Of a stretch of 64,000 nucleotides of DNA, positions 28,672 to 56,085 are shown in pieces. Numbering within the stretch: the first letter of the stretch is position 1; the number at the start of each line of letters is the position of its first letter. The translations under genes and the position numbers were made by a program. The notes beneath the pieces were generated by a model, which was not told the DNA's origin, did not search any database, and worked only from the letters and a program-made list of their open reading frames with translations. The stretch is from Miscanthus floridulus (taxonomy: Eukaryota > Streptophyta > Magnoliopsida > Poales > Poaceae): NCBI RefSeq assembly GCF_019320115.1, contig NC_089591.1:60821907-60885906 (forward strand). The letters are read 5' to 3'.

Positions 28672-28676
28672 CGCCT
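28672..28676 (+). repeat. Target-site duplication of E3, left copy
   Basis: CGCCT; the right copy is at 56086-56090. Confidence 0.95.
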
Positions 28677-29107
28677 TATGGCAGAACCTCCTAAATTATA
28701 GGGCCACATGCACCTGTCACTGTCTAATGACCTCTGACGACTATGCATATGTTCCTGGTAACTTAAGAAGACTGTCAGGTGTCCTCGGAGAACCCCGAAT
28801 CATCCATGATTTCCAAACAGGATCCCATTATAGAGTCATTGCAGTATTACAACATTTATTCAAATATCTACATCAGAGTAAAATAGCAGAAGTCTTACAA
28901 TAACTTAGTTTACAAAACAGTAGTTTCAAATCTTACAAACTAAGTTCGATAATTATTACAAACCATAGTAGTGGAGTGGCATTAGTAGCATAATACAAAC
29001 ACACAATATAAGTACCCTGCCCAAGGGTCACACATTCACTTATCATCATCGATTTGAACAACCGTCATGCAGCATGGTCCAAAGAAGACCTGCTCATGAG
29101 GCTTACC

Positions 29108-29158
29108 TGCAACAAGGGTCAACGAACCCTGAGTACAAAAGTACTCAACAAGACTTAA
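29108..29158 (-). promoter_or_regulatory. LTR hairpin C module, E3 3' LTR
   Basis: On the minus strand: GTTAAGT, then TTGAGTAC-tttt-GTACTCAG (29148-29129) with one U-G pair, then a run ending TTGTTGCAG (29108). It lies 431 bp from the LTR end. The other copy is at 52949-52968. Confidence 0.72.
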
Positions 29159-29720
29159 CCAAAATAAAAACTGATAAGACTCAGGAATGCAGGCTCAGGG
29201 ATTCAAGGTAGGCTTTAGCAATAAACAAGGTTCTTTTGCGTAAAAGGTTTCTAACAAGATTCTTTCTTTCAACATTTGTATCTCCATATCAATCATATAT
29301 AAAGCTGACATGATCCGTATTGAGATCATGAAACCTCATATTAAACTCTTTCTCAAAACTTCCTCAAGTTTCAGTTATTAACTACGATGATGAATAGTGA
29401 GTTGAGTCTCCATAACCGAGGAGCAACAACGATTCAAACTGATTAAAACCTAGCTGGGGATTCCCAACCACACGACATATGCAGGTCCCCAACCTACATA
29501 TACCAACCTACCCTCAGATCCTCTAAAACAAGAATGGGTCTACGCTACCCGAGAATACAGTACTCTATCAATCCAGCCCATTGCCACGTGGGTACACGCT
29601 ATTCTCGCCATCTCTCCACTCCTAGTGCGTGAGTAGCCATTCTAGATTTATTACTCCACATGTTCATATCTCATGATCATATAAATAACCAGTCATATCC
29701 AAGAAACCATTTATATCTCG

Positions 29721-29741
29721 CAGGTGACCGGTGATCACCCG
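29721..29741 (-). promoter_or_regulatory. LTR hairpin B, E3 3' LTR
   Basis: On the minus strand: CGGGTGA-tcaccgg-TCACCTG. The second pair is G-U, intermediate between the A-U of E1/E2 and the G-C of L. The other copy is at 53710-53730 and has lost its outer pair. Confidence 0.75.
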
Positions 29742-32110
29742 ACTTTTACCGTTCTAAGCATGGCTAAGCATAAATAAGCATTCTCGGATTGAAACGGTTA
29801 ACAAAGTTGATATTGAAAAACAAGGTTGGTAATGCACCAATTAGGTTTTCACCCAACTCCTAATCACTTAATGCAGTACTTGAAAGCAAAAGCGATATAA
29901 TTTGTAAAACACAAGATAGGTTTAAATGCATCCGGGGCTTGCCTTGGTTGACGGAATAATCAGGTTCCGGAGACGTTCCACAGATATCAAATCCGACCTC
30001 AACAGACAGATTAACTTCCTCCACAACTTGATTGACTACCATGTTCTCACTTTCATTCACTACACGTAGTAACAATGCCATGTTTAATATGATGCGAGAT
30101 CTAAAACATGATGCTTGATGATGGGTGCAACATTAATAACTTGAATACAACTTTCCTTCGCGGTACAGTTGCAAATCAACAACTAACTAAACATTTCATA
30201 AATTCAAATAATTACTTTAAGTACCAAGAATTATTTATACTAATGACCCAAGGTTATCACTCAATCAAAAATTCAAACAAAACCTAATTCATTAAGGTTT
30301 ACTATTTGTTTTTATGAATTAATTATTAAATTTAAAATTATGAAATAAATCAACTTTCTCCAAATGAGCTCAAAATTTTTGTGAAGACTCATCACATGAT
30401 AACTAAGTGGCAAAACAATTTTCATAATTTTTTGATAAATAATAAAGCCTAGAAAAATCATGGAAGCTCATTTATTAATTAATTAGAGCAATTTTTATCA
30501 CATTAAAATGTATTTAAAATCCACATTTAATATTTTTCCTAAATAGTTCACATCTCAGAGAGGTCACACAAAAAATTTCATAATTTTTGGAGCTCTAATT
30601 AATTCTATACAAAAATAACAAATCATAGCACTATTCATTCAATTCTGTAAAATAGAAAAATCCATTTTCAAATAACAGTCACTGACAGAGTGACCCCACC
30701 TGTTAGCGTCGTCCTCCCACGCTCAACAGCGATGACCGCGCTTTGACCGGCGATTTCTCGCCGCCGGTGAGATCAACGGCGACAGCGAGGGTACCAACGT
30801 GATCACCACTACGAGGCGCACCTATTGGTGGCACTAGTTGCACCAATTACAGCTCAAACCGAGCTCAACGTCGGCCATGGAGGCCACGACGGCGTGGCTA
30901 TGCTACGTCGGCGAAACAAGGCTAGTAGCAGTTAAACAAAGCACTTGGGAAGAATCAGGAGCTCACCCCAAAGACGCTCGAGCAGAAAGATGGACTATAG
31001 GTGCAACGAAGAAGCTCGTCGTCGTTCACAGCAAACACGGCGGCGAAGCAGACGTCGACGGCGGTGTTCCGGTGGCTGTGGTGGACAAAATGATCAAGCA
31101 ACAAGGCACAAAGCATCACAGCAACATGGAGAAGATGGAGCAACACTTCGCAAGGACAGAGGCTAACCGTAGAGCTCCGACCACGGTGAAGTGGAATCAC
31201 CGGTGACGTTGCCGGTCGCGAGGAAGAAAAACAACGCATAGCGTACCTCATCGAAATCAAGAGCCTAGGACTATATGGCTGGTTTCGCAAGGAGTAGGCC
31301 GAGTTGTGGTATGCTTTGCCAAGACAAGGAAGGCGCTATGGCGATGGCATAGCTCAACGGAGCAGCGGCGGCGGCGACGGGAAAAACAGAGAAGAAGAAT
31401 GAAGAAAAACGGCGACGGTGAAGACCATATAACGTGGCCAGGAAGCCAAAGGAAGCCACGCCGCGGCCTTCTCCATGCCAGTGCGAAGCTGAAGGTGGCC
31501 ACGAGCACGCCTGGAAGCCAAAGGAAGCTCGTCGGCGGTGACAGTTGCCCGCTGGTACTGTTCCAACTAATTACCGAATTGCCACTTGTCTAATTTCTCA
31601 AATTACTCCCAAATTTGCATGGTAACTCAAAAATCTCCAAAAATAAAAGTTGTTCCAAATTCAAAGTTCTACAACTTTGCTTTAATAACCATACTCTAAT
31701 TCGGTATATATTTTTAAACGCAAGTTTAAAATCAAAAGGGGACACTTTAAGTACATTTCGCCTTTTCAAATTACTTCAAATTTTGTATAACAACTTTGAA
31801 AACTCCCAAAACCAACTTTGTACACCTTGACAAACTCTACACTTTTGCTGCTAGGTTCAACCCTAAAATATGCTTAGATTTTGAATTAGGTTTTCTAGGG
31901 TAAAATTAATTACTAGAAATTAGGGTTTTCAGAAATTCAATTCAATACAAAGATTTTGAACTTGATTCAAACCATACAAGTCAACACATATAACATAAAG
32001 GTAAACTTGTTTTAGTGTATGCATATCAAAATTTTCACTAACACCAAAATGATGTGCAATGCATACGATGACATGGCAGGTTTTAGTATTTAAACACCCG
32101 AGGTGTTACA

Positions 32111-32273: not shown

Positions 32274-32711
32274 CTATATTGACGCAAGAAACTCTGGAAA
32301 TTGTTCTAGCAAGTAATCTTCGGATTCCCAAGTAGCTTTTTCTTTGAAATGTTGATTCCACGGTATCTTGTAGAATTTGATTGTCCTCCTTCGAGTGACA
32401 CAGTCTTTCTGATCCAAAACTCTGATAGGATATTCAGAATAGGTCAAATCAGGTTCAAGTTCAACTCCTTCAACCTCAACATTCTGCTCAGGCACTCGAA
32501 GACACTTCTTTAATTGAGAAACATGAAACACATCATGCACAGCTAAGAGATGTTCTGGTAACTTCAAGTGATATGCCACCTTTCCATACCTCTCCAAAAT
32601 TTGAAATGGTCTAATATAATGAGGTGCCAACTTGCCTTTAATACCGAAACGGGTAACTCCCTTCATTGGTGACACCTTCAGATATACATAATCTCCCTTG
32701 TTAAACACCAA
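32274..32711 (-). pseudogene. pol: E3 integrase C-terminus and chromodomain
   Basis: An open 145-codon frame. The GPY/F-type module comes first (DYVYLKVSPMKGVTRFGIKG, then LAPHYIRPFQIL; the usual GPF is altered to RPF). The linker FHVSQLKKCLRVPEQ and a chromodomain follow: YPIRVLDQKDCVTRRRTIKF, then ATWESEDYLLEQFPEF. The domain is continuous to its stop, the best preserved chromodomain in the window. The chromodomain of this class is thought to recognise methylated H3 tails or associated chromatin. Upstream stops separate it from the integrase core. Confidence 0.9.
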
Positions 32712-33620: not shown

Positions 33621-34232
33621 TCATGTCGCTTTTCCATTTCTGACTCTTTCTTTGATATGGACTATACCCTTGTTTTCTTTCTGAGCGGCAATAATTTGAT
33701 CTCGAATAGTTGATTCAACAATTATATTGGTCAAACTACCTTGTTGAATTACCTCTATATTCAACTCTTCCATTTCTTGACATAAAGTCAGATCCATTGT
33801 TTTTACTGTCAAACAATTGCAATGACTCTTACGACTGAGGGCATCTGCCACCACATTTGCCTTACCAGGATGGTAATGCACCTCCAAGTCATAATCTTTA
33901 ATCAGTTCTAACAATCTTCTTTGTTGCATGTTCAATTCTGATTGAGTAAAGATATACTTTAAACTTTTGTGATCTGTATAAATATAGCAAGTATTACCAA
34001 GCAGATAATGCCGCCAAATCTTCAAAGCATGGACAACTGCTGCTAACTCCAAATCATGAGTTGGATAATGTTCTTCATGTTGCTTAAGTTGTTTGGAAGC
34101 ATAGGCAATGACTCGGCCTTCTTGCATCAATACACACCCAATACCAATACCCGAAGCGTCATAATAAATGTCAAACAGCTTCTCGATATCTGGCTGTGCT
34201 AACACTAGGGCAGTGGTTAATAACTTCTTCAA
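33621..34232 (-). pseudogene. pol: E3 RNase H
   Basis: A 203-codon open frame. [49 protein letters not shown] and [17 protein letters not shown] cover the whole domain with all four acidic positions. A 60-residue extension leads toward the integrase. The end is TGA or a frame change before the zinc domain. Confidence 0.9.
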
Positions 34233-34235
34233 AGT

Positions 34236-35003
34236 CTAGAAAGCTCCTTCATATTCAGGTGACCAGACAAACATGGCTTGGTTCTTCAACAATCCCATGA
34301 TGGACTTGGATATTCTAGAGAAATTAGGAATAAAACAACGGTAATAACCCACCATTCCTAGAAAACTCTGAACTAGATGAATAGTGGTTGGTGGTTTCCA
34401 ATCTAGTACATCCTTAACTTTGCTTGGATCTACTGCAATTCCTTCAGCTGACAAGACATGTCCTAAAAATTGTACTTCCTTTAGCTAAAAGTCACACTTA
34501 CTGAACTTGGCATATAACTAAGGTTCTCTTAGGCGGGTCAGAACAATTCTGAGATGTTCTGCATGTTCTTTCTTGTTCTTGGAATATACTAAGATGTCAT
34601 CAATAAACACCACTACAAACTTATCTAGCTTAGGCATGAATACTGAATTCATCAGATACATGAAATGAGCTAGGGCATTCGTCAAACCAAAAGACATTAC
34701 TAGGTATTCATATAATCCATATCTTGTGGTAAATGCCGTTTTAGGAATATCTTTAGGCTTAATTTTTATTTGATGGTAACCTAACCTCAAATCAATCTTG
34801 AAGAAAACTTTGGCTCCAGCCAACTGATCAAAAAGTAAATCTATCTGAGGTAAGGGATACTTATTCTTAATGGTCACTTCATTTAATGGATGATAATCAA
34901 CACACAATCTCAGAGTCTCATCTTTCTTTTTCACAAAAATTGCAGGACATCCCCAAGGTGATGAACTATGTTGGATAAACCCTTTATCAATCAACCCTTG
35001 CAA
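34236..35003 (-). pseudogene. pol: E3 reverse transcriptase
   Basis: 34518-35003 holds the fingers and palm: [52 protein letters not shown] (Ser replaced by Leu in the usual DLRSGYHQI) and the catalytic [10 protein letters not shown]. 34236-34454 holds the thumb in a second piece ([20 protein letters not shown]). A stop or frameshift at about 34500 separates them. Confidence 0.9.
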
Positions 35004-35762: not shown

Positions 35763-36777
35763 ACATTCCCTAGAGAAATGACCTAACTTCCCACAATTGA
35801 AACATGGGTAATTGTGGCCTTGGGGTGTTGGAGCACGAACACCAGGAACATTTGACTGTTGAGAGTTTTGGTAAGTTGTAGCAGGACTGACATTAGAACG
35901 TGGCTTGAAACTGCAGTGGATGATAAAGAGGACAATAGTGATTCACTAGATGATAGATTATCTTCTGTCTCTTTTTATTACCACCAAAAGATCCAGATGG
36001 CACACTCTTTTTCCTCTTAATCTCCTTATGTTGCCGATATTTCTCCTCCAAAGCAATAGCAATGTTGACTACCTCAAGATATGTGACATTGGTGCAGGTA
36101 GTCATCATTGTCTGAAGTTTGGTATTTAGACCTCGCATGAACCACTTCTTCTTCTTGACATCTGTGTTTACATGCTCAGGTGCATACTGTGAAAGGTGAT
36201 TGAACTTGCCCACATACTGCATGACTGTTTGATCACCTTGTTTCAAAGTAAGAAACTCATCCAGCTTCATGGCCATAACTCCCTCTAGAATATAATGGGC
36301 ACAAAAAGCAGTACAGACCTTGGCCCAAGTTAACTGAACACCTGTTGGTTGCATAGCCACAAGGTTTGCCCACCAAGCACCTACTGCACCTCTAAGTTGT
36401 TGGGCAGCAAAAACAGGCTTTTGAAACTCAATGCATGGAATGAGATCAAACTTCTGCTCTATGGTACGAAGCCAATCATCAGCTTCCAGTGGTTCGTCAG
36501 CCTTGGTAAACACTGGTGGTCGTATATCAGTGAAATCAACATACATAGCTTCTTGCTGTTGATGATTACGACCATAGTTCCCTTGCATCATATTTTGATT
36601 GCTTTGAGCTAACTCCCAAAGCAACCGAGCATTATCGACGATCACATTGACCAGTGCTGCAATAGCATCAGCCAAATTTGGTGGAACTGGTGGCGGATCA
36701 GGAATACCATCCTCATCATGTGAAGTACCAGGAATAGTCAAACCCTGAGTACGACGCATCTGTTCATGACAAACCAA
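35763..36777 (-). pseudogene. gag: E3 gag with CCHC zinc knuckle
   Basis: An open frame of 294 codons (36777-35893) encodes capsid-type Gag: PPVFTKADEPLEADDWLRTI, then AAQQLRGAVGAWWANLVAM, then LTWAKVCTAFCAHYILEG, a Ty3/gypsy retrotransposon Gag pattern. After a frame change an intact knuckle follows at 35804-35763 (CFNCGKLGHFSREC, CX2CX4HX4C). The likely start is the inner Met at 36759 (MRRTQGLTIPG), aligned with MPRTCSTSAG in E2 and preceded directly by CAG. Confidence 0.9.
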
Positions 36778-36933: not shown

Positions 36934-37504
36934 TCAAACCTCGTGATCGGTATCCATTCCAGAAACATTTCCGCCTTTATTATCACTTTCATCGATCATC
37001 ACTAATTCTTCTAGATCTTCTTCTTCTTCCTCTTCAAGTTCATCATCATCTACAATGATGACACCTGGGTCCATTGCATTTGCCTGAGGTTCATGATTTG
37101 GATCCAAAAGATTGTTCAGCCTATGGACTTCTTCATGTAGATTGGTAGAATATTCTTCTAAGTCTTCTACATAGAACTCTAACTCATGAGCTCAGGCTCT
37201 AGCTACATCTTCTCTATGCCAAGCCTCGTTTCTTCCTTCCACCATACAAACTAACATACGCTCACAGTTCTTATGAGCGGTGGTGAGACGCTTCAATTGA
37301 TTCTATAACTTGCCCACCTGGATGGCATCCAAGGCCCTATCTCTAGTAGCCTATGCTAACTCTGCTAAAAGCCTCTGTATCTTAGCCAGGGGATCAGGCC
37401 TAAAGCTACTACTGCTAGCACCATCACTCCTAAGGGCAAGCTGGTGATGAGGAACTCCTTTGGGTCCAACGGAACTTACGGGGTGTTACCTTGGTATGAG
37501 CCAT
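36934..37504 (-). pseudogene. E3 ORF0 with histone H3-tail-like N-terminus, coiled coil and acidic tail
   Basis: The function is unknown. The start is ATG at 37504: MAHTKVTPRKFRWTQRSSSS. If Met is removed, positions 1-9 read AHTKVTPRK against ARTKQTARK in histone H3, with K4 and K9 in register. A 1-nt frame change near 37440 leads to HQLALRSDGAS (compare the QLA of the H3 tail). A long helical Leu/Glu/Arg-rich part follows, with three in-frame stops, then an acidic run (DDDELEEEEEEDLEELV) and the end VSGMDTDHEV at TGA 36934. The E2 ORF0 ends in a similar way (VSDVDSDHFDE). It lies between primer site and gag, about 160 bp before gag. Confidence 0.72.
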
Positions 37505-37901: not shown

Positions 37902-38302
37902 TGTGGTAGAACCTCCTAAATTATAGGGCCCACATGCACCTGTCACTGTCCAATGACCTCTGACGACTATGCGTATGTTCCCGGTAACATAAGAAGACTG
38001 TCGGGTGTCCTCGGAGAACCCCAAATCATCCATGATTTCTGAGCAAGATCCCATTATAGAGTCATTGTAGTATTATAACATTTATTCAAATATCTACATC
38101 AGAGTAAAATAGCAGGAAGTCTTACAATAACTTAGTTTACAAAACAATAGTTTCAAATCTTACAAACTAAGTTCGATAATTATTACAAACCATAGTAGTG
38201 GAGTGGCATTAGTAACATAATACAAACACACAATATAAGTACCCTGCCCAAGGGTCACACATTCACTTATCATCATTGATCTCAACAACCGTCATGCAGC
38301 AC
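37902..38302 (-). repeat. E3 5' LTR, inner part
   Basis: It matches 28677-29073 closely. It is interrupted by E2 at 38302 and resumes at 52892. Confidence 0.9.
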
Positions 38303-41300
38303 TATAACACCCTAGGTGTTTGCCTTCCACATTTGCACTTGCATTTCATGGACATGAGCATCATTCATTAATTCACAAGCTTATATCACATGAAACATGT
38401 CTTTGAAACATTGCAACAGTATAGTTATGTTTCTTGTGTGTTGTTTCCTTTATGAAATGTAAAGTGTGCAACACTTAAGTGCAACATGTGCCACTCACTT
38501 AGTGAAACAAAGTTAGTTAGTACTATGCAACAAGATTAGGAAACAAGTGAAACATGACTATGAAACTAGTTGTAACATTTCATGTGTTTTTCATTGTTTT
38601 AGTACATACCTTGCTTGACTCTTGTATGACCAATGTATGGTGTGGCTAAAAACTCTTGTAAGTGACTTAGTTACACATAGAATGTCTTTTGGAACATTGT
38701 TCATGTTGATCACTTTGACTAATTAGGTTCCCAAGTCATGGTTTGACCAAATTTGACCCCTGAACCCTTTGGTTTGACTGTTTAAAAAGTGTAGCTTACG
38801 ATGTTTGCATGTCTGAGCAACCTAAAACAAAGTTGTAGCTAATTTGATAAGGAACAAACTTTGTTTAGAAGTCAAGTCATGAAAATGTGCACAACATGTT
38901 CAAAAAGGACCCACAAGTCAGAATTGAAAGCTGATTCAACACTTGAAAATATTTCTAAGTCCTAAATCCAATTTCAGTTTGAATGGACCAACTTTGGCTT
39001 GACATAACTCATGATCCGTTGTGATTTAGCTATTGATTTCTAAATCAAAGTTGTAGCCCTACTATAGCTCTACAACTTTCATGTACATTGCTTGCACTAA
39101 TTCATCACGGTTTAAGAAATCAAACACTGTCAAACATGGCTGTCAGGCTGATCATTTTCACTGAATGGCGAGCTACAGTGCTGACCATTTTCAGAAAATG
39201 TCCGACGCGTGGGTGACACTTGTTGCTGGCCGTCTAATCGTGATAGCCACGTGCCACGGCCATTCTGGCGTCGCAGGCCATGACTTGAACACCCCGCACG
39301 CCTGCCTGACCTGCTTGTCACTCCATTTTTCATTTCTTCGCCTCCACCGCGCGCTGCAAGCGAGCTCCGCCGCTCCGCCATCGCAGAGCTTGCAAACCAC
39401 CACAAAAACATGAACTCCATCTTCACCGTAGCTCCGCAGTGTTCCTCTCGACCTTCTCCACCACTTAGCCGAGCTATTTGAGTGTTGGTAAGAGCGCATT
39501 CACCATTCTAGCCACCACCGCCATGAGCGTGCCCTCGTCGGAGTTGAGGTCGCCGTGGTCAGGGTAGCTAGGAACCCTCCCTACCTTGTCTCTTTGCTAG
39601 GATAGCACCGTGGTGACCTCCTATAGCTCATGCCATGCTCGGTTGAGCCAGCCGTGGCTTGCCGTCGCCGACAGCTCGCACTGAAGCTTTGTCGTGCCAC
39701 CATCACCGGCGACAAGCTCCCTCTACTAGGTCATAGCTCTAGCTAGTAGCACCAATCGGTTCCTCTCCTCGCGTAGGTCATGTAGGTAGCCGTGGTGTTG
39801 CTGGAGTCCTCGCCGTTGGCGAGCAAGACCAACGCTGCACCATCAAATGTCGCCTCCTCTATTTCGTCTCGCTGACCGGTGGGTCCGGCTGACAACTGGG
39901 TCCCCCACTGTCAGTGACTGAGTTTGAGAAGATAGTTCAAAAATTCTAGTTTTTAGTGCAGGAAGCCAACGAAGCAGCCGCCACGGAGGAGTTACCCGAG
40001 TGCCCTGACCACCAGCCTTCCTCGTTCCTGAAAGGCAAGCCCCGGAGCATATTAAGCCTCCCATGCTTTTACAAATACATTGAGTATCTTTTATTATTGA
40101 TGATGCATTACAGTATAGGAATTGGTTGGAACCAATTGCTGCATTATATATTCTTCCTTGGCCAGATATCGCACTAGAATACTATTTAAGTTCAGGACGG
40201 GTTAAATGCTTAGCCATGCTTAGTGCGGTAGAAGTCAGGTGATTTCCTGTCACCTGCGAGCTTTAGGATGAGGTGGATCATGGTTGGCTATATTTGCTAT
40301 CGTAGGAAAAGAACCATGTGAATAATGAATTAAGACCGGACAGGGTCTTGTGTAGGTTTGAACATAGTGACTTTGTCTGAGTCAGTTTAAGGACCGATAC
40401 AGTTGTACGTCCTCATGTCATGTTGAACGTAGCCTAACACTTAGCTGGCCAGATAAGTCGTTCCGACCATGAAGCCTAGTAGCTCGACTCAGGCCGAGGG
40501 ACACGAGCAGTGGCGTGCATTCTGGAGGTAGTAAGGATGTGCGGAGAGCCATTGGCATAAGTCCAAGGTGGGTTAGAGTCCCGAACAACCTTGGCAGAGT
40601 GGTTCTCTGAGAATGTCGATCTAGTTCGGACTCGCGACTCTTGAATCGTACCAAAGGTGACTTGTTTGTGACCCTGACGGGGGAAGCAAGGTTTGTGTTA
40701 GGAATACCCCTCTAGCTGGATAGGAATCGATTCGAATCGCCGTCTCTCCCGGATAGTGAGAACATTGACTGAGCAGCGGCAACGTAGATTCAATTAATTT
40801 AACGATATGGTTAAATGGATGATGATGATAAGGTTGCCACAATGAATACCTGATATGGTTATTAATGTTTGCACCTTAATAAAATGATTACTAAGTATAG
40901 GTGCTAATATAGATGATAGGATAATGGCTAAAAAGTCACTGCTAGTCTGGATAAGAGTTGATCATACTACTTATGCTTTTCTATAAAAAGAAAGTGTCAG
41001 CCAGCTCCACTACATTAAGCTATGCATAATCCTTGGTGTCATTTGTTTAGTTTTCGGCGGGTAAGTCTAGCTGAGTACATTCCCGTACTTAGGGTTTATT
41101 CTCTCTTGTTGTAGATGATCTTCTATATCAGGGATTCTGTAAGTATTGTCTCCACCCAGCGGGTGATGAAGACTAGATCATGGGCATGATCTCCGTTCTC
41201 TTATCTGAATGCTTTTGCGGGCCGTGATCAGCAAACCAGTATGTGTATTTGAACTCGGTGTGTGAGTTAAACTATTTGCTTCTACATGTTTACAAGACTT

Positions 41301-41539
41301 GTTTTGTAATAACGATGACTCTATGATGATGTAATCTATTTGCGAAACGGCTGTGAAATGTTGTAACGTACAATATGTTATGTTGAATTACTGTGATCTT
41401 GGTTGTATACAAGTTGGTTTGAAATCCTTCGAGATTTCGGTTGACTACCGGGTTTATATGGGCTCAAGTTCGAGAATTTGATCGTTTCAGGCGATTGTTT
41501 TTTGTACTTGTGCTTTATAAATTGGTCGGTTCCGTGACA
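38303..41539 (+). repeat. E2 5' LTR (3237 bp, internally deleted)
   Basis: It lacks the 1457 bp corresponding to 49852-51308 of the 3' LTR. The junction is in TTTTTAGTGCAGGAAG near 39957, and GTG is present at both break points in the other copy. Hairpin B is at 40236-40256. The hairpin C module runs from GTAAGT at 41061 to TTGTTGTAG at 41114, its second arm being GTACTTAG. Confidence 0.92.
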
Positions 41540-41541
41540 GC

Positions 41542-41553
41542 TGGCATCAGAGC
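41542..41553 (+). other. E2 primer-binding site
   Basis: TGGCATCAGAGC, a Met-tRNA site with one change. Confidence 0.92.
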
Positions 41554-42343
41554 TAGATTCAACATTAAACATGTCTTACGGCTATTTAAAACAAAAGCTT
41601 TTGTTGTAAAGATGGGTTTTAAACTTATAATTATATATAAGTGTTCAAAAATCAAAATTTTTATGGTATACTGGTGATCACATCCCTTATAGCCCACTTA
41701 AGGACTTCTAGGTGGCTTATATATAATTACTAACTTGGGGGAATTGATTGTTTCTATTTTGTCATCCATGCGGCATGATATTGCATGGGTGCCATTCGTT
41801 TGAATGGTAATGTATGGATCAATTGCCTCTACGCTATGGTAAGTGTGAGTTGCGAGAGCATGACCATCCAACCGTCGGTCTAGGGGAGAGCTAGTTGTGG
41901 TTACTGGAGTATTTACATGTTGCATACATGTATGTATGAAGGTACTTAATTGTGGGTACATTTGTTGGGTAGTTTGGATACCGAAGTATATATATCGGGG
42001 GATGTATATATGGAGAGTATCTTAGTTACTACTTGTCTAATTAGCATTATATCTTGTTGGGTTGGGCTACAATGAAGTTTTTCTGTAGGTATGCTAACAA
42101 CGCACCATGTAGATCGACTAGTTACCACTAATTGAGAGAACGTATGTATGCCACCGTATATCCCGCTAAAGCTTAAATTTTCTTAGGTTTGTGAGGACTA
42201 TACGGAATGAGCATGCATCATATTCACTCATGACATTCATATTGCATTACTCCCTCCCTTATAATTACTTATCCCAAGTATAAAGTACAATCTCTCAGCA
42301 GAGTAACCCTCTCACATGTGAATTGCATCCCTTTTTGATACAG
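41554..42343. other. E2 leader
   Basis: I see no gene. It is AT-rich and ends with the pyrimidine run TTTTTGATACAG directly before the ORF0 ATG, resembling a splice acceptor. Confidence 0.5.
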
Positions 42344-43418
42344 ATGGCCACGCCCGTGTTTCCTACTGGTAGCAGCACCTTTTTGGACCAAGTTCGGTAC
42401 TCCCACTTTGCTCTAGAGGGTGCTCAGTTTGGTCGGGTACCCTGGAGGCACCCAGCTACACATGGAGGCAGGCGGTACCATTAGGAGATGTACCCTAGTA
42501 TGTCATGACCTTTGTGGTGCCAGCAAAACCCCTCAAGACCGTTGTGGCATGGGTGGAGCATTGAGACTGATGGACAGTAGTCCATGGGAAGCCTCTCAGG
42601 TTGCTGCCCTTGATGTGCTAATGGATATAGCACAGAGCTTTGGGGATGAGTTAGTGGGTGGACCTACTTCATCCATTCCCCGAGTGTCTCCTACCAAGGC
42701 TGAGTGGACTCAGGACGTTGGTCAGGCCTTGGTTCGAGGCCATGGCGAATGTGTGCAGAGCGACAACGCTGGAATGAGTGCTATGATGGCAGTCTTGAAG
42801 CTTTGTCGAGTCAGGCAAAACACCCTTTCAAGTGCACTAGATGAAGCTGGCAAGGCAATGGAAGCCTAGCATAGGTTCAGGTTGCATGCCCGCAAGTATC
42901 GTCGTAGGGTGGATGCATGTGGGAGAGCTCAGCAAGAAGTTGAGGAGATTCACGGTATTGCAAATTATCATCTACAACAGTGGGGTCAAACCACACGTGA
43001 GAGAGATGCACTTCATAACCAGCTGATGAACCTCACTATTGAGAGAGATGAGGCCGCACAAGAGTTGGATCAGTGTGACACATCACCTGGGATGCCAGCT
43101 TTAGAGTTAGCAGAAGAAAGACGTCGAGGTTGGGTTTTGGCCAACCACAACGCCTTTCAAAGAGAGCAAGCACTACAAGAACAGCTTGAAGAGCTTCAGG
43201 TTGAGCACCATCAGCTACACAAAAGTCTGTTTCCTATTCCCCGTCCCATACCCAAGTATCCAATAGTGGGTGGACCTCAAGTAATTGAGGCCGATGAGGA
43301 AGAAGAGGATGTGCAGATGGATGATAATGTAGCTGAGTCGGCAGATGAACAAGAAGAGGAAGACTCAGAAGAAGTCCAAGGTGTCTCTGATGTGGACAGC
43401 GATCACTTCGATGAGTAG
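42344..43418 (+). pseudogene. E2 ORF0
   Basis: The function is unknown. It starts ATG 42344 (MATPVFPTGSSTFLDQVRYS). TAG at 42482 and a frame change lead to 42420-42869 and 42882-43418, which share one frame and are separated by TAG 42867-42869. The middle block WEASQVAALDVLMDIAQSF, then a later W, follows the spacing of the conserved block in L ORF0. The second half is helix-rich with repeated Glu/Gln/Leu (for example REQALQEQLEELQVEHHQLH). An acidic tail has runs of Glu and Asp and ends VSDVDSDHFDE at TAG 43416-43418. E3 ORF0 shares the coiled coil plus acidic tail. A 350-bp non-coding stretch separates it from gag. Confidence 0.7.
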
Positions 43419-43769
43419 TTTGTTAGCAAGCCTCACTAGTTAAGCTTTTGCAGTCAGGGATGTAATGAACTTAAGTACGAAGACTGATGTTGGATGTACC
43501 TTTTTAATTCAAATTTGGCATGTAATGTACTTCAATTCGCTCCCTTCAGGATGCGTATCGTAATGGTTAAGTTAAAACTTGTCATGTTGGAATGCACTGC
43601 GTTTGGTGCTAGTAATCTACTTGATGATGTGGTGATTGAAGAATGAATTATTACCTCTGTTTATTGTATGAAGTTTTTATTCTCGTCAGTAAATTCAGTT
43701 TGGCATGATTATATTGTTCCTCTCTAATGTGCTGACATCATCAATAATTACTGGTTGCGCATTGTGTAG
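43419..43769. other. E2 ORF0-gag spacer
   Basis: Non-coding. It ends GCGCATTGTGTAG directly before the gag ATG, again resembling a splice acceptor. Confidence 0.5.
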
Positions 43770-44777
43770 ATGCCTCGTACTTGTTCCACTAGTGCGGGTG
43801 ATGATGATGAACTTCCACCACCACCACCCACACCAACGAAATTAATAGCAATGCTTGCGGAAGGGCAGCGCACTATGGCCGAGGCCCTCCGTATGATTGC
43901 AAATTGTGATGGCCGTGGTCCATGCCAAGGACCGGATCCAAATCAATACAGTGATTTCAAGGATTTCCTTAACATGAAACCCCCAATCTTCAAGGAGGCT
44001 GAGGAGCCTCTACAAGCTAATGAGTGGTTGAATACTCTTGAGCAGAAGTTCCGTCTGCTCTGCTTGACTGAGGTGCTAAAAACTGAGTACGCATCGCACC
44101 AACTGCATGGGCCAGCTGGCATTTGGTGGAGTCATCATCGGTCCACTATGCCTGCTAATGCCCAAATCACTTGGGATCAATTCAAGTCTGCTTTTAGGGG
44201 AAATTACATTCCTCCTTGTCTTATGGTGATCAAACATACTAGAGTTCATAAAGCTAACCCTAGGGGAACAAGAGCCTAATGAATACCTGCAAGCTTTGAA
44301 CAACCTTGCAAGGTATGCTATCCGAGTTTGTGGACACCGATGCTAAGAAGATTGCAAGCTTCAAGCGGGGACTTCGTCCCAAACTGATGAAGACCAGTGG
44401 GAAATTGCAAGTGTGCTCATTTTAATGAGTTTGTGAGTGATGCCTTATCACAAGAGAACAACAATGCTGTATACGTGGCTTTGAAAAGTCGTAAGAGGGC
44501 CTATGAGGTGGGTGCCTCATAATCTAAGGCTCCCGTCGTGTAGAGGGCTCCATTCTGTCCTCCAGCGTCAGCCGCCAAGTTTCGCCTACCACAGAAGACA
44601 AATCCTGCCAAGACTGGGTTTCACAAGGCATTTATAGTTGCTCTTCCCAAGGGCACTACCAGTCAGGGCAGTTCTAGGGCTCCACCAAGCAACATGCCAT
44701 GCTGGAACTACAACAAGATAGGCCACTAGGCAAGGGAGTGCCCTTACCCTAAGAAGAATAATTACTAGGGTGGCCGT
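43770..44777 (+). pseudogene. gag: E2 gag with damaged zinc knuckle
   Basis: MPRTCSTSAGDDDELPPPPP starts a 169-codon frame with KPPIFKEAEEPLQANEWLNT and HGPAGIWWSHHRSTM, the Gag capsid pattern. A frameshift near 44235 breaks it, and more stops follow. The knuckle at 44700-44741 reads CWNYNKIGH-stop-AREC: the second Cys is Tyr (TGC to TAC), and the residue after His is a TAG from CTGG to CTAG. Confidence 0.88.
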
Positions 44778-44786
44778 CAGGGACAA

Positions 44787-45092
44787 GTGAACCACACTAA
44801 TATTACTGAGATTCCTTCAGGAGAGGTAGTGACTGCCGGTAAGTTTCTGATTGACCAACACCCAGCAGTTGTACTATTTGATTCAGGTGCTTCGCATTCC
44901 TTCATTAGTCCAGCATTTGCATCCAAGTTTATGCAGAAAACATATACTGTTGAGGGTGAGGGTTATTATATTAGGGCTGCCAGTGGTATTATCCCAACCA
45001 AGCTGGTAGTTGGGGATGTACAATTTGTGATAGAGGGGCGAAGTTATTAGGTTGATCTGGTAATTTTACCGAGGCTAGGTATCGATGTAATA
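44787..45092 (+). pseudogene. pol: E2 aspartic protease
   Basis: QHPAVVLFDSGASHSFISPA has the catalytic DSG at 44880-44888. The frame ends at TAG 45048-45050 and continues in the same frame after it into [15 protein letters not shown] single retroviral-type Asp protease domain of about 90 residues. Confidence 0.88.
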
Positions 45093-46180
45093 TTGGGAAT
45101 GAACTGGATGAGCCGTCATGGAGTGCTTATCAATACATCGACTAGGGTAGTTATGCTCAGAGATCCTAGCAATCAGCAGGGTTTTCTAGTACAGTTACCT
45201 AGGGGCATCAATCTTTCTTGCACGACCAATGCAGTGCAAGCAAAGTCTTTGGCAGACATCCCTGTCGTGTGTGACTTTTCGGATGTTTTCCCCGATGATT
45301 TGCCTAGATTGCCCCCGGATCGAGAAGTAGAATTCAAGATAGAGTTGCTTCCTGGTACAGCTCCCATCTCTAGAAGGCCGTATAGAATGCCTCCTAATGA
45401 ACTAGCCGAACTTAAGACCCAGTTGAATGAACTGCTAAAGAAAGGCCTTATCCACCCTAGTTCATCTCTGTGGGGGTGCCCAGCCATCTTTGTGAAGAAG
45501 AAGGATCAATCTCTATGCATGTGTGTAGATTATAGACCCTTGAATGCAGTTACAATCAAGAATAAGTACCCTCTGCCACGCATCGATATCTTGTTTGATC
45601 AGTTGTCTAAAGCAAAAGTCTTTTCCAAGATTGATTTGAGATCTGGGTATCATCAAATCAAAATTCGGCCTGAGGATGTCCCAAAAACCACATTCTCTAC
45701 AAGATATGGTCTATATGAGTACCTGGTTATGTCTTTTGGATTAACCAATGCCCCCGCACATTTTATGTATCTGATGAATTCAGTGTTTATGCCCTGAGTT
45801 GGACAAATTTGTGGTGGTATTTATAGATGATATCCTGGTCTATTCTGAGAATGAAGAAGATCATGTTGAAACATTTACGGGTGGTTCTCACTAGATTGCG
45901 GGAACACCAGCTATATGCAAAGTTTAGCAAATGTGAATTCTGGCTTCGTGAGGTACCTTTTCTTGGACACATGTTGTCCGATGGTGGAATTATGGTTGAT
46001 CCCACCAAGGTGCAAGAAGTATTGAACTAGAAGGCTCCCATCTTGGTGCACGAGGTTTAGAGTTTTCTGGGGTTGGCTGGCTATTATCATCGCTTCATCT
46101 CGGATTTCTCTAAAATAGCCAAGCCTATGACTCGATTGCTGCAAAATAACATGAAGTTTGTCTAGACTCCTGAGTGTGAT
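45093..46180 (+). pseudogene. pol: E2 reverse transcriptase
   Basis: 45093-45797 is open: [38 protein letters not shown], then [20 protein letters not shown] and [19 protein letters not shown]. One extra C in MPELD shifts the frame at about 45793. The catalytic FIDD (45820-45831) and VYSENEED are in another frame, then 45827-46030 resumes with [20 protein letters not shown] and [19 protein letters not shown]. Stops from CTGG to CTAG lie at 46027-46030 and 46162-46165. Confidence 0.9.
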
Positions 46181-46625
46181 ACGGCTTTCCATACCCTACG
46201 AACTCTTCTAACGTCGGCTCTAATTTTGGCACAACCGGATATCAAGAAACCTTTTGATGTGTTCTATGATGCATCAGATATTGGGTTAGGAGGTGTTCTT
46301 ATGCAAGAGGGTAGAGTCATTGCTTATACCTCTTGCCAACTTTAGAAGCATGAAGTGAATTATCCAACGCATGACTTGGAACTCGCTACAGTTGTTCATG
46401 CTTTGAAGGCCTGGAGACATTATCTACTTGGCAATGTGTGCAACATCTACACTGATCATAAAAGTCTCAAGTACACCTTCACTCAACCAGAGTTAAATAT
46501 GTGTCAAAGAAGATGGCTCGAGTTGATCAAGGATTATAACCTCCAAGTGCACTATCACCCTAGCAAGGCAAACATCGTCAGTGGATGCCTTAAGCAGAAA
46601 GTCTCATTACCACTCATTGATTGAG
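46181..46625 (+). pseudogene. pol: E2 RNase H
   Basis: [48 protein letters not shown], then [10 protein letters not shown], where the last Asp block (VADALS in E1/E3) is frameshifted to SGCLKQK. A TAG lies near 46345 in a position where E1 has QLRKHE. Confidence 0.88.
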
Positions 46626-46733
46626 AGTGATGTCCATTTGTCAAAGCTCCTTCATCCTACAGTCCTTCACAACATCACTGTCAGTTGTACTCTATAGAGT
46701 CGAATTATCAAGCTACAGAAGACAGATGTAGGT

Positions 46734-47760
46734 GTGTTTCACATCAAGCGCAAGATGAAAGAGCAAGAAACCAAACATTTTCGAATAGATGAGGAAGGCG
46801 TGTTATGGTTCAAGGATAGGTTGGTAGTTCCGAAGAATAGAGAGCTTAGAAACCAAATCATATCCGAAGCTCATTCCTCTAAATTATCTATTCATCCTGG
46901 TAGTAGTAAAATGTATCATGATTTGAAGCCTCGATTTTGGTGGACCAAAATGAAGAAAGAGATAGCCGCTTATGTGGCTAGGTGTGATACTTGTTAGTCG
47001 AGTCAAGGCTGTACACATGAAAGCTGGATTACTTCAGCCACTCTCTATCCCAAGGTTGGAAATAATAGGAGATAAGTATGGATTTTATTGTTGGACTCCC
47101 TACTACTCAGAGGAATTTTAACTCCATTTGGGTGATTGTTGACCGTACTGACCAAAGTCGGCACACTTCATTCCTAGTCCGCATAGACTTTCATCCAACC
47201 GACTATGCAGGAGTTGTACTTCAACCAGATAGTCCGACTTCATGGGATCCCTCGTACTATTGTCTCAGATAGAGGACCACAGTTCACTGCTCACTTTTGG
47301 GAGCACTTGCACTGGATTTTTAGGAACTAAGCTAGTAAGAAGTTCTGCCTATCATCCGTAAACCAATGGGCAAACTGAACGAGTGAATCAAATCTTAGAA
47401 GATATGTTGAGAGCATGTGTCATCTCGACTAAGGGCTCATGGGAAAAATGGTTACCCCTAGCTGAATTCTCGTACAATAATAGTTATCAAGAGAGCATAA
47501 AGATGGCACCATTTGAGGCTTTGTATGGCCGGAAGTGTATAACCCCATTGAACTAGGTAGAAGCTGGTGAAAGGAGATATTATGGCATTGATTTTGTTCA
47601 AGAAGCCAAAGAACAAGTCCTGTACTATCCAAACCCACATGGCCAGCAGCTCAAGCTAGGTAGAAAAGTTATGCTGATCGACGAAGAAAACCTATTGAGT
47701 TTGAAGTTGGAGACTTCGTTTATCTGAAAGTCTCACCTATGAAAAGTGCCCAACGCTTTG
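46734..47760 (+). pseudogene. pol: E2 integrase
   Basis: The zinc domain is in 46734-46997 (SEAHSSKLSIHPGSSKMY and VARCDTC). The core starts MDFIVGLP at 47078, WVIVDRT with a frameshift, then [10 protein letters not shown] near 47260-47290 with the catalytic Asp. YNNSYQESIKMAPFEALYGR follows, then CTAG at 47553-47556, which replaces a Trp. Dead by several frameshifts. Confidence 0.87.
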
Positions 47761-47826
47761 GTGTGAAGCTGAAAGCTTGCGCTGAGATATGTTGGTCCGT
47801 TTGAAATCATTAGACAAAGTGGTAAA

Positions 47827-48156
47827 GTGGCGTACAAGATTCAATTACCTCATGAGATGAGTGCTATCTTCAATGTCTTTCATGTATCCCAATTGAAGAA
47901 ATGTCTTCGCGTCCCTGAAGAGAGAGTTCCATTGGGGGATATCGAGTTAAAATCTGATTTGACCTTTGAAGAAAAGCCGGTTCGAGTGATTGACACTCGT
48001 GAGCGAGTGACTCGGAGTCAGGTGGTCAAGTTCTACAAAGTCATGTGGAGTAATCAGGGTAGTGAATGCGATGCAACATGGGAAAGGGAAGATTATTTGA
48101 GGGATGGTTATAAGGAATTCTATCAACAATGGTACGCTTTTCAAATCTTGGGATGA
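47827..48156 (+). pseudogene. pol: E2 chromodomain
   Basis: An open 109-codon piece: AIFNVFHVSQLKKCLRVPEE, then KPVRVIDTRERVTRSQVVKF, then CDATWEREDYLRDGYKEFYQ. The domain is well preserved, with the aromatic positions and TWE box visible. Confidence 0.9.
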
Positions 48157-48179
48157 GATTTTTATAAGGGGGTAGGGCT
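48143..48179 (+). promoter_or_regulatory. Hairpin and polypurine tract of E2
   Basis: AAATCTTG-gga-TGAGATTT (48143-48161) pairs with two wobble positions. TAAGGGGGTAGGGC then leads into the 3' LTR. Confidence 0.75.
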
Positions 48180-51100: not shown

Positions 51101-52891
51101 AGGTTGTATAAACTTGGTAAGTAAAGTGATTTGAATAGGGCTTAAATTGGAATATGCGAACTACAGCGAACATGCGCATTCCCCGAGCATCCCTGACATT
51201 CATTCATGTGCATCCATGATATTTATCTTGCGCATTCATGCAATAGGTGTGCCGGAGGGAGTGACGTTGCTAGAGTTTGAGGGAGCCAACCAGGAGGAGG
51301 AACTCGAGGTGCAAGAAGCCGATGAAGCAGCCGCTGCGGAGGAGTTGCCTGAGTGCCCTGACCACCAGCCTTCCTCGTTCCTAAAAGGCAAGCCCCGGAG
51401 CATATTAAGCCTCCCATGCTTTTACAAATACATTGAGTATCTTTTATTGTTGATGATGCATTACGTATAGGAATTGGTTGGAACCAATTGCTGCATTATA
51501 TATTCTTCCTTGGCCAGATATCGCACTAGAATCCTATTTAAGTTCAGGATAGGTTAAATGCTTAGCCATGCTTAGTGCGGTAGAAGTCAGGTGATTTCCT
51601 GTCACCTGCAAGCTTTAGGATGAGGTGGATCACGGTTGGCTATATTTGCTATCATGGAAAAGAACCATGTGAATAATGAATTAAGACCGGATGGGGTCTT
51701 GTGTAGGTTTGAACATAGTGACTCCATCTGAGTCGTTTAAGGACTGATATACTGTACGTCCTCATGTCATGTTGAATGCAGCCTAACACTTAGCTGGCCG
51801 GATAAGTCATTCCGACCGCGAAGCCTAGTAGCTCGACTCAGGCCAGGGACGCGAGCAGTGGCGTGCATTCTGGAGGTAGTAAGGATGTGTGCAGAGAGCC
51901 ATTGGCATAAGTCCAAGGCGGGTTAGAGTCCCGAACAACCTTGGTAGAGTCGTTCTCTGAGAATGTCGATCTGTTCAGACTCGTGACTCCTGAATCGTAC
52001 CAAAGGTGACTTGTTTGCTGACCCTGATGGGGGAAGCAGGGTTTGTGTTAGGAATACCCCTCCTAGCTGGATAGGAATCGATTCGAATCAGCCAGTCTCT
52101 CTCGGATAGTGAGAACTTGACTAAGCAGCGGCAACGTAGATTCAATTAATTTAACGATATGGTTAAATGGATGATGATGATAAGGTTGCCATAATGAATA
52201 CCTGATATGGTTATTAATGTTTGCACCTTAATAAAATGATTGCTTAGTATAGGTGCTAATATAGATGATAGGATAATGGCTAAAAAGTCACTGCTAGTCA
52301 GGATAAGAGTTGATCATACTACTTATGCTTTTCTGCAAAAGAAAGTGTCAGCCAGCTCCACTACATTAAGCTATGCATAATCCTTGGTGTCATTTGTTTG
52401 GTTTTCGACAGGGTAAGTCTAGCTGAAGTACATTCTCATACTCAGGGTTTATTCCCTCTTGTTGTAGATGACCTTCTATATTAGGGATTCTATAAGTATT
52501 GTCTCCACCCGGCGGGTGATGAAGACTAGATCATGGGCATGATCTCCGTTCTCTTATCTGAATGCTTTTGCGAGCCATGATCAGCAAACCAGTATGTGTA
52601 TTTGAACTCGGTGTGTGAGTTAAACTATTTGCTTCTACATGTTTACAAGACTTGTTTTGTAATAACGATGACTCTATGATGATGTAATCTATTTGCGAAC
52701 GGCTACGAAATGTTGTAACGTACGATATGTTATATTGAATTACTATGATCTTGGTTGTATGCAAGTTGGTTTGAAATCCTTCGAGATTTCGGTTGACTAC
52801 CGGGTTTCTATGGGCTCAAGTTCAAGAATTTGATCGTTTCGGTGATTGTTTTTTGTACTTGTGCTCTTATAAATTGGTCGGTTCTGTGACA
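48180..52891 (+). repeat. E2 3' LTR (4712 bp)
   Basis: It opens TGTAACACCCCAGGTGTTTG and ends TTCTGTGACA. It is the full-length copy. A GC-rich block lies at 49070-49810. Hairpin B is at 51588-51608. The hairpin C module is at about 52414-52467 with the stem damaged by an inserted A. An open LTR frame is at 51147-51470. Confidence 0.93.
51147..51470 (+). CDS. Possible short LTR-encoded acidic protein (E2)
   Basis: 107 codons. The C-terminal half, VTLLEFEGANQEEELEVQEA, then ELPECPDHQPSSFLKGKPRS, has relatives at the same LTR place in E1 (about 5390-5545, frame-broken: ITLLEFEEAEE, later ECPDHPP in another frame). The minus-strand E3 frame at 30081-29860 is also related (EPDYSVNQGKPRMHLNL). 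It could instead be a conserved nucleotide box around GGCAAGCCCCGGAGC that happens to be open. Confidence 0.35.
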   Translation: MEYANYSEHAHSPSIPDIHSCASMIFILRIHAIGVPEGVTLLEFEGANQEEELEVQEADEAAAAEELPECPDHQPSSFLKGKPRSILSLPCFYKYIEYLLLLMMHYV

Positions 52892-55800
52892 GCATGGTCC
52901 AAAGCAGACCTGCTCATGAGGCTCACCTGCAATAAGGGTCAACGAACCCTGAGTACAAAAGTACTCAACAAGACTTAACCGAAATAAAAACTAATAAGAC
53001 TTAGGAATGCAGGCTCAGGGATTCAAGGTAGGCTTTAGCAATAAACAAGGTTATTTTGCATGAAAGCTTTCTATCAAGATTCTTTCTTTCAACATTTGTA
53101 TCTCCATATCAATCATATATAAAGCTGACATGATCCGTATTGAGATCATGAAACCTCATATTAAACTCTTTCTCAAAACTTCCTCAAGTTTTAGTTATTA
53201 ACTACAATGATGAATAGTGAGTTGAGTCTCCATAACCAAGGAGCAACAATGATTCAAACTGATTAAAACCCAGCTAGGGATTCCCAAGCCACATGACATA
53301 TGTAGGTCCCTGACCTACATATACCAACCTACCCTCAGATCCTCTAAAACAAGAACGGGTCCGTGCCACCCGAGAATACAGTACTCCACCAATCCAGCCC
53401 ATTGCCATGTGGGTACACGCTATTCTCAGCCATCTCTCCACTCCCAGTGCACAAGTAGCCATTCTCGTAATAGAATAGCCAAGTTAAGGCTTACCGAAGT
53501 ATGTGGCTAGTACTACAAAGTCTCACCTTATGCAATTCAACAATGGACATGTCTTAATCGACATAGGTGGAAAGAACCCGCTCATAAGACTTCCATGTCT
53601 TATGGCTCCCATACACCAAGTCTGCCCAGTCTAGATTTATTACTCCACATGCTCATATCTCATGATCATATAAATAACCAGTCGTATCCAAGAAACCATT
53701 TATATCTCGTAGGTGATCGGTGATCACCCGACTTTTATCGTTCTAAGCATGGCTAAACATAAATAAGCATTCTCGGATTGAAACGGTTAACAAGGTTGAT
53801 ATTAAAAAACAAGGTTGGTAATGCACCAATTAGGTTTTCACCCAACTCATAATCACTTAATGCAGTACTTGAAAGCAAAAGCGATATAATTTGTAAAACA
53901 CAAGGTAGGTTTAAATGCATCCGAGGCTTGCCTTGGTTGACGGAATAATCAGGTTCCAGAGACGTTCCACATATATCAAATCCGACCTCAACAAATGGAT
54001 TAACTTCCTCCACAACTTGATTGACTACCATGTTCTCACTTTCGTTCACTACACGTAGTAACAATGTCATGTTTAATATGATGCGAGATCTAAAACATGA
54101 TGCTTGATGATGGGTGCAAAATTAATAACTTGAATACAACTTTCCTTCGCGGTATAGTTGCAAATCAACAACTAACTAAACATTTCATAAATTCAAATAA
54201 TTACTTTAAGTACCAAGAATTATTTATACTAATGACCCAATGTCATCACTCAATCAAAAATTCAAACAAAACCTAATTCATTAAGGTTTACTATTTGTTT
54301 TTATGAATTAATTATTAAATTTAAAATTATGAAATAAATAAACTTTCTCCAAATGAGCTCAACATTTTTGTGAAGACTCATCACATGATAACTAAGTGGA
54401 AAAACAATTTTCATAATTTTTTCATAAATAATAAAGCCTAGAAAATCATGGAAGCTCATTTATTAATTAATTAGAGCAATTTTTATCACACTCAAAATTT
54501 ATTGAAAATCAACATTTAATATTTTTCCTAAATATTTTACATCTCAGAGAGGTTACACAAAAATTTTCATAATTTTTGGAGCTCTAATTAATTCTATACA
54601 AAAATAAAAAATCATAGCACTATTCATTCAATTCTATAAAATAGAAAAATCCATTTTCAAATAACAGTCACTGACAGAGTGACCCCACCTGTCAGCGTCG
54701 CCCTCCCACGCTCAACAGCAACGACCGTGCTTTGACCGGCGATTCCTCGCCGCCGGTGAGATCAACGGCGACGACGAGGGTACCAACGTGATCACCACTA
54801 CGAGACGCACCTATTGGTGGCACTAGTTGCACCAATTACAGCTCAAACCGAGCTCGACGCCAGCCATGGCGGCCACGACAGCGTGGCTGTGCTACGCCGG
54901 TGAAAACAAGGCTGGTAGCAGTTAAACAAAATGCTTGGGAAGAATTAGGAGCTCACCCTAAACACGCTCCAGTAGAAAGATGGACTAGAGGAGCAACAGA
55001 GAAGCTCGTCGTCATTCACAGCAAACACGGCGGCGAAGCAGACGTCGACGATGGTGTTCTGGTGGCTGCGGTGGACAAAATGATCAAGCAACAAGGCACA
55101 AAGCATCACGGCAACATGGAGAAAATAGAGGCTAACAGTAGAGCTCCGGCCATGGTGAAGCGGGATCACCGGTGACGCTGTCCGGCCGCGAGGAAGAAAA
55201 ACGATGCACAGCGTACCTCAGTCGAAATCAAGAGCCCAGGACTATATGGCTGGTTTTGCAAGGAGGAGGCAGAGCTATGGTATGCTTTGCTGAGACAAGG
55301 AAGGCGCTACGGCAACGGCATAGCTCAACGGAGCAGCGACGGCAACGACGGGAAAAACAGAGAAGAAGGACGAAGAAAAACAGGCGACTGGTGAAGACCA
55401 TGTAATGCAGGCCAGGAAGCAACAGGAAGCCACACCGTGGCCTTCTCCATGCCAGCACAAAGCCGAATGTGGCCACGAGCACGCCTGGAAGCCAGAGGAA
55501 GCTCGACGGTGGTGACAGCTGCCCGCTGGTACTGTTCTAACTAATTACATGAATTGCCACTTGTCTAATTTCTCAAATTACTCCCAAATTTGCATGGTAA
55601 CTCAAAAATCTCCAAAAATAAAAGTTGTTCCAAATTCAAAGTTCTACAACGTTTCTTTAATAACCATACTCTAATTCAGTCTACATTTTGAAATACAAGT
55701 TTAAAATCAAAAGGGGACACTTTGAGTACATTTCGCCTTTTCAAATTACTTCAAATTTTGTATAACAACTTTGAAAACTCCAAAAACCAACTTTGTACAC

Positions 55801-56085
55801 CTTGATAAGCTCTACACTTTTGCTTTTAGGTTCAACCCGAAAATGTACTTAGATTTTGAATTAGGTTTTCCAGGGTAAAATTAATTACTAGAAATGAGGG
55901 TTTTCGGAAATTCAACTCAATACAAAGATTTTGAACTTGATTCAAACCATACAAGTCAACACATATAACATAAAGGTAAACTTATTTTAGTGTATGCATA
56001 TCAAAATTTTCACTAACACCAAAATGATGTGTAATGCATATGATGACATGGTAGGTTTTAGTATTTAAACACCCGAGGTGTTACA
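52892..56085 (-). repeat. E3 5' LTR, outer part
   Basis: It continues 37902-38302 after the E2 insertion. It keeps the 167-bp segment 53466-53632 that the other copy has lost, and has an 18-bp deletion near 55126 relative to it. It ends GAGGTGTTACA at 56085. Confidence 0.92.

Follow-up and report, generated by a model that had tools for sequence, protein, structure and literature searches.

Why would a plant retrotransposon carry, ahead of its gag gene, a reading frame that opens like the tail of histone H3? The question is raised by one element, here called E3, in the window (the whole stretch of DNA that was analysed, 64,000 nucleotides long). E3 is probably a plant chromovirus of the Tekay/Del type, now dead, and likely from a grass. 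It is a single minus-strand insertion running from 56085 to 28677, with AGGCG flanking both ends. Between LTRs bordered by this target-site duplicate lie gag, reverse transcriptase, RNase H, and the integrase end with its chromodomain, which is the Tekay/Del order; the integrase core was recognised by eye only. The parts of E3, from the 5' LTR onward, are these:

52890..56085, minus strand: 5' LTR, its 5' part, cut off by other sequence (38302-52889)
37902..38301, minus strand: 5' LTR, its 3' part
starting at 37898: primer-binding-like site TGGTATCA, which we take to be of the initiator-tRNA type
37430..37504, minus strand: ORF0 start (frame 1), MAHTKVTPRK..., the H3-tail-like N-terminus; 24 codons, with a stop past the frame change
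36934..37479, minus strand: ORF0 remainder (next frame), with the GPKGVPHHQLA segment, a helical middle and an acidic C-terminal tail; 3 internal stops
35893..36777, minus strand: gag (ORF; Retrotrans_gag, E 3.9e-17)
34518..35003, minus strand: reverse transcriptase piece (RVT_1, E 8.3e-26)
33621..34232, minus strand: RNase H piece (RT_RNaseH, E 1.1e-31)
32277..32618, minus strand: integrase C-terminal end, an SH3-like part and then a type II chromodomain (SH3_Tf2-1, E 3.2e-16)
about 32283-32435, minus strand: type II (Tekay-like) chromodomain (Chromo, E 4.6e-4, under Pfam's cut-off)
28677..32110, minus strand: 3' LTR, 3,434 bases, TGTAACACCT...CCATA
28672-28676 and 56086-56090: target-site duplicate AGGCG

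When the two LTRs are aligned over 3,434 sites, 198 of them differ, which at 1.3e-8 substitutions per site and year corresponds to about 2.3 million years. ORF0 (37504-36934) sits between the 5' LTR and gag, which begins at 36777. It is broken, with a frame change shortly past codon 10 and three stops in its second piece. The sequence that splits the 5' LTR (38302-52889) holds LTR-like pairs of its own (38302-39958 with 48178-49854, and 39956-41541 with 51309-52893, at about 94% identity). Elsewhere in the window, a 3.5 kb direct repeat with 97% identity (15615-19107 and 22520-26018) probably represents the two LTRs of an element younger than E3.

The ATG of ORF0 lies at 37504-37502 on the minus strand, and frame 1 from there reads MAHTKVTPRKFRWTQRSSSSPACP up to its stop. 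The sequence-only reading had likened M-AHTKVTPRK to H3 residues 1-9, had pointed to HQLA beyond the frame change, and had placed an integrase chromodomain in the same element. All of this is present. With Met excluded, six of nine positions are identical to the H3 sequence ARTKQTARK; the text of the next frame (...GPKGVPHHQLALR...) includes GPKGVPHHQLA; and the integrase ends in a Tekay-like type II chromodomain.

Such a match of nine residues might, of course, have arisen by chance in an element that is dead. Within the window, the start of E3 is the most H3-like 9-mer among all 127,936 in six frames, and also among the 2,830 that are preceded by Met. Matches at six or more of nine positions are expected about 0.004 times among the post-Met 9-mers and 0.18 times among all 9-mers, numbers that ignore how many famous motifs a reader could recognise. 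Coincidence draws some support from the frame-1 text of E3 alone, which reaches a z of just 1.9 against its own shuffles. The decisive support therefore comes from outside the window, where relatives match H3 at positions at which the window copy has lost identity.

Three protein searches for ORF0 relatives gave 176 (E <= 0.01), 198 and 248 (E <= 0.1) matches, of which the best 120 from each were examined. Many of these say nothing about the tail, because they are fragments that begin at an inner Met. A regular expression that constrains residues 9, 10, 14, 17 and 22, permitting K or M alone at residue 9, gathered 74 N-termini; it overlooked eight sequences that hold the region, the query itself among them. 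Within this gathered set, a Met-Ala start is found in 70 of 74, K4 in 70, T6 in 71 and K9 in 73, and the complete pattern A-x-T-K-x-T-x-R-K in 46. The sequence-only reading had asked that the N-termini of relatives be aligned, and had named absence of the pattern from intact relatives as an outcome that would speak against it; that outcome did not arise.

Relatives begin MARTKKTPRKSTGPKGVPRHQLAPR, which matches H3 1-23 at 16 of 22 compared positions. One distant relative begins MARTKQTARKMTGPKGVPRHQLAPR, which equals H3 1-9 exactly, and matches at 17 of 22 over H3 1-23. Distant relatives are more H3-like than E3: ARTKQTARK is found unchanged in P0234, which stands for 23 member sequences, P0232 has ARTRQTARK, and P0238 and P0162 start with ARTHETARKSTG and ARTKQAARKSSG. 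For closer study, 13 representative starts were picked by hand; the two analysis sets differ by one member of one clade. These 13 agree with H3 1-23 at 12 to 17 of 22 compared positions, with one extra residue (V) on the ORF0 side. Divided into two blocks (H3 1-14 and H3 16-23), the matches are 12/14 and 5/8 for P0234, 11/14 and 5/8 for P0005, and 7/14 and 5/8 for the weakest of the 13.

Against their own shuffles, the 13 starts reach z values of 6.4 to 9.9, and none of 2,000 shuffles per start equals the real score. A profile of the 13 starts, searched against all PDB chains, gave 139 matches at E <= 10, the best at E 5e-8, and the best 60 are all H3 sequences, one chain being labelled Cse4. 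A single P0005 start used alone reaches E 9e-4. The shuffles and the PDB profile search thus refute a chance match, to which we leave next to no probability. Judged from these alignments, the resemblance of ORF0 to the H3 tail is almost certainly real and conserved.

Not every residue is kept equally well. Present in all 13 representatives are R8, K9, P16, R17, L20 and A21; in 12 of 13, A1, T3 and Q19; in 11 of 13, T6, T11 and G12. Less well kept are K4 (9), A7 (8), K14 (7), S10 (7) and Q5 (4), and the clade of E3 has Pro at the position of A7. Other residues are specific to ORF0: P13, G15 and the extra V in 13/13, and H18 and P22 in 12/13.

Six relatives (P0123, P0146, P0148, P0149, P0162 and P0240) have a predicted protein that begins at a Met upstream of the M-A/P start; were translation to begin at that upstream Met, their H3-like tail would lie inside the protein. 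Among the viral contigs searched with the ORF0 alignment, 20 stretches fit a pattern and none encodes a relative. The window itself holds a second ORF0-like frame with an acidic end, before the gag of another element (ORF 42882-43415, plus strand, with a possible start at 42344). That frame (42344-43415) would start with MATPVFPTG; it was examined for a start resembling H3 and showed none, and its comparison with P0005 gave a BLASTP E of 14 and a profile-comparison probability of 44%.

The genome to which the window belongs (2.68 Gb) offers a view of recent copies. It was searched with P0162, and the matches listed are confined to the body of the protein, at query residues 101-236. The loci read were the 30 best and 40 picked mainly for open frames, which, after removal of one duplicate, leave 69 distinct places. 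The frame runs unbroken back to the start in 47 of these body-found places, and the tail is present in every one of the 47 (16 of 16 among the 30 best places, 31 of 31 among the other 39). Met is in place in 46 of the 47; in the remaining 22 of the 69 the frame is broken before the start. At the level of DNA, a fuzzy pattern of the E3 start, allowing at most 8 changes over 30 bases, occurs in 77 of 77 distinct loci, eight of which, E3 included, came from a DNA search with E3. Protein searches of this genome returned about 10,000 to 12,000 first-look candidates, of which 150 were scored per search. The copy number of the family is thus probably large: at least 150 scored places, and likely far more. 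Searches for distant ORF0 clades in this genome, with P0234 and P0238 as queries, gave 38-46% and 34-53% identity among the matches listed, and several of the places so matched coincide with copies of the E3 clade.

How strongly is the tail held over deeper divergence? Rates were estimated from 29 long relatives, three of them trimmed to the M-A/P start and P0123 also without its C-terminal end. Mean rates are 0.58 over the 25 columns of the tail and 1.08 over 146 columns of the body (Mann-Whitney p 2e-7); when 147 windows, each of 25 columns, are compared, the tail has the lowest rate. Among 11 divergent representatives, identity is 60-92% in the tail versus 19-69% in the body, and the tail exceeds the body in 55 of 55 pairs. 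The database search is biased to tail-bearing relatives, because the five-letter words that the deepest relatives have in common with the query come more from the tail than from the body; relatives without the tail may have been overlooked by such a word-based search.

The most invariant stretch of ORF0 is GPxGVPRHQLAPR, which departs from H3 in five ways (P13, G15, the extra V, H18 and P22). This deviation means that the constraint may serve a partner other than a reader of H3. Here, an explanation of a different kind suggests itself: a tail derived from H3, or convergent with it, that is now selected for GPxGVPRHQLAPR in a function of its own (contacting Gag, RNA or a further protein of the element, for example), with ARTK...K9 as a fading remnant.

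Recent copies bear directly on this explanation. Across 46 distinct open copies, dN/dS is 0.51 for residues 2-25 (bootstrap 0.41-0.65), divided into 0.66 for residues 2-13 (0.50-0.87) and 0.28 for residues 14-25 (0.17-0.46). Elsewhere in ORF0 it is 0.15 (residues 26-38), 0.19 (coil) and 0.19 (acidic tail). Uncorrected pN/pS with CpG columns masked, from a set that counted one copy twice, gives 0.40 (2-25), 0.80 (2-13), 0.17 (14-25), 0.28 (26-38), 0.19 (coil) and 0.26 (acidic tail). At CGT codons, several of the changes in the tail replace R by H or C, the outcome that CpG decay should produce in dead copies. The whole tail is under purifying selection, yet in this young clade no segment is less constrained than the first half of the tail. 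Thus, neutral evolution of the N-terminus, which, with the rest conserved, the sequence-only reading had named as another outcome that would count against it, is not found over residues 2-25; it is approached more closely in the first 12 residues (0.66 versus 0.19 for the coil).

This weak constraint on the first 12 residues counts against ARTK as a key contact in the E3 clade. It fits a function served by the second half of the tail, as do the change of T3 to A in 35 of the 46 distinct open copies (among L010-L076), where it is the commonest form among the copies read, and the Pro of the E3 clade at A7. The remnant part of that explanation has difficulty with the deeper relatives. A mere remnant should be gone at such depth, yet R8 and K9 are retained in 13/13 and A1 and T3 in 12/13, despite body identities of only 19-69% among the 11 representatives. 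We consider this explanation by a function of its own unlikely.

What sort of protein carries this tail? For P0234, AlphaFold2 (with a 33-sequence alignment) predicts residues 1-38 as disordered, a helix at 39-130 with pLDDT of about 97, and a disordered acidic end; the pTM of 0.43 is usual for a lone helix. None of five relatives has a histone-fold Pfam match at E <= 1, which implies that just the tail is common with H3, and none has a match to any Pfam family above its cut-off. Weak matches (ATG16, Bestrophin_2 and others) did not reach the curated cut-offs and were regarded as noise from the coiled coil. ORF0 as a histone is ruled out, as it lacks a histone fold by Pfam and its middle is predicted to be a single helix. 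ORF0 therefore shares with H3 the tail, residues 1-23; unlike in H3, what follows is a single predicted helix. The tails of CENH3 proteins depart from H3 shortly past ARTK.

These features suggest a plan for ORF0: an H3-tail mimic (residues 1-23), a long, probably coiled-coil helix, and an acidic C-terminal tail. An initiator Met before Ala is usually removed. Its removal here would expose a free Ala1 together with H3-like K4, R8 and K9 on a flexible tail, and self-association of the helix, if it occurs, would present several tail copies together. In the likeliest mechanism, the tail would then dock on the host's own binders and modifiers of the H3 tail, and the docked protein would serve the element as a decoy or as a chromatin tether. 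That R8, K9, P16, R17, L20 and A21 are kept in 13/13 is in keeping with a peptide that has to resemble H3 to something; P13, G15, V, H18 and P22 suggest that the partner may recognise an altered surface. We put the probability that ORF0 acts by engaging H3-tail-binding proteins at roughly 0.55.

The something that sees H3 might instead be the nuclear import machinery. Importins recognise the H3 tail, and the part that they use extends through residue 23; an H3-like tail could thus carry ORF0, or the integration complex, into the nucleus. An N-terminus that is basic and predicted to be disordered would suit this, and the H3-like residues do reach 23, within the part that importins use. Simple basic signals tolerate change, however, and the invariance of R8, K9, P16, R17, L20 and A21 (13/13), with Q19 in 12/13, is not what such tolerance would give, while K14 is found in 7/13 and K18 is replaced (by His in 12/13). 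Import as the purpose of the tail seems to us rather improbable.

A more specific form of engagement with H3-tail-binding proteins can also be framed. Displayed in several copies by a coiled coil, ORF0 would be a retrotransposon-encoded decoy of the H3 tail, methylated or read at the equivalents of K4 and K9 and occupying the plant's H3K9/H3K4 machinery. It would thereby weaken silencing, or would draw the integration complex into heterochromatin. We offer this detailed version only tentatively; it is less probable than not. The evidence does not tell decoy, tether and import apart.

The reader closest to hand is, of course, the chromodomain of the element itself. Its Tekay motifs were read by eye: EKATWESE fits seven of the eight places of EEXTWEXE, and CVTRRR fits five of the six places of (K/R)-X-(L/T)-R-X-(k/r). 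Its sole PDB sequence match is CLR4, at E 0.36. Of the cage residues, W45 is retained and Y48 is replaced by His. For Y24 the answer turns on how the sequences are aligned: without gaps it is absent, while HMMER, allowing a one-residue gap, pairs the Tyr of E3 with a Tyr of CLR4. HP1-type chromodomains bury A7 of H3. Since at least one of three cage residues is missing, and since the E3 clade has Pro at A7, it is doubtful that the chromodomain of E3 would read a methylated ORF0. The interpretation of ORF0 as a chromatin mimic, proposed by the sequence-only reading, is thus upheld in that the H3 resemblance is real and long conserved, to residue 23, and weakened in that the own chromodomain is a doubtful reader.

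Type II chromodomains as a class are described, in the part of the source available, as lacking the cage residue Y24 and usually also Y48, and the interacting factors of those in plants as not found (PMC3350952). E3 is like the Tekay-type chromoviruses in having this type II module (PMC3350952, in part). Their roles would differ: a type II chromodomain would read or target chromatin, and ORF0 instead imitates what chromatin displays.

Extra frames of this kind have been described before. The accessible portion of PMC3485330 reports ORF0 in elements of rice, maize, sorghum and Brachypodium, and none in homologues from dicots and Selaginella; the grass retrotransposon ORF0 is there without an assigned function. 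The ORF0s of Retrosat2, RIRE3, RIRE8 and their homologues in grasses are, like the one in E3, extra ORFs in grass Ty3/gypsy elements, and the LTRs of Retrosat2, at more than 3.2 kb, are comparable to the 3,434 bases of E3 (PMC3485330, in part). E3, with an extra ORF upstream of gag and an LTR above 3 kb, is likened to the Retrosat2/RIRE3 type by description alone. For Retrosat2 and others, the same portion gives homology models, enzyme-like annotations and strong divergence between species, and has ORF0 evolving faster than ORF1 in Retrosat2-type elements. The word histone does not occur in the main text of that paper. The rice Retrosat2 ORF0 is said there to have about 10% similarity to its sorghum homologue, with no BLAST match between them (PMC3485330, in part); if these belong to the same family, this is hard to reconcile with a tail kept by every grass ORF0.

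A viral protein that imitates the H3 tail is also known. Influenza A NS1 has a flexible tail that resembles H3 (residues 1-4), and that is bound and modified like H3; it offers four residues (ARSK) at a C-terminal tail, without a free N-terminal amine (PMC10612106, from the part available). In ORF0, unlike NS1, the H3-like residues number about 23 and stand at the N-terminus, where a free Ala1 is possible; the binding of ORF0 is putative. As a histone mimic, ORF0 would be about six times longer than that of NS1.

In purpose, a possible analogue is VANC of the Arabidopsis VANDAL transposons, which is encoded by the transposon and counters silencing by the host. Unlike ORF0, the VANCs are described, in the parts available, as sequence-specific anti-silencing proteins, and histone mimicry is unmentioned there (PMC5735166, PMC10398659). 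Among titles and the starts of abstracts in the openly licensed literature, no report of an H3-like tail in ORF0 was found. Histone mimicry is already known; the form proposed here would be long, N-terminal and retrotransposon-borne.

If the tail peptide binds H3 readers and is methylated, then the elements of an abundant family are equipped with a histone decoy or tether. This, in turn, would bear on how such elements survive silencing, and on the sites of their insertion.
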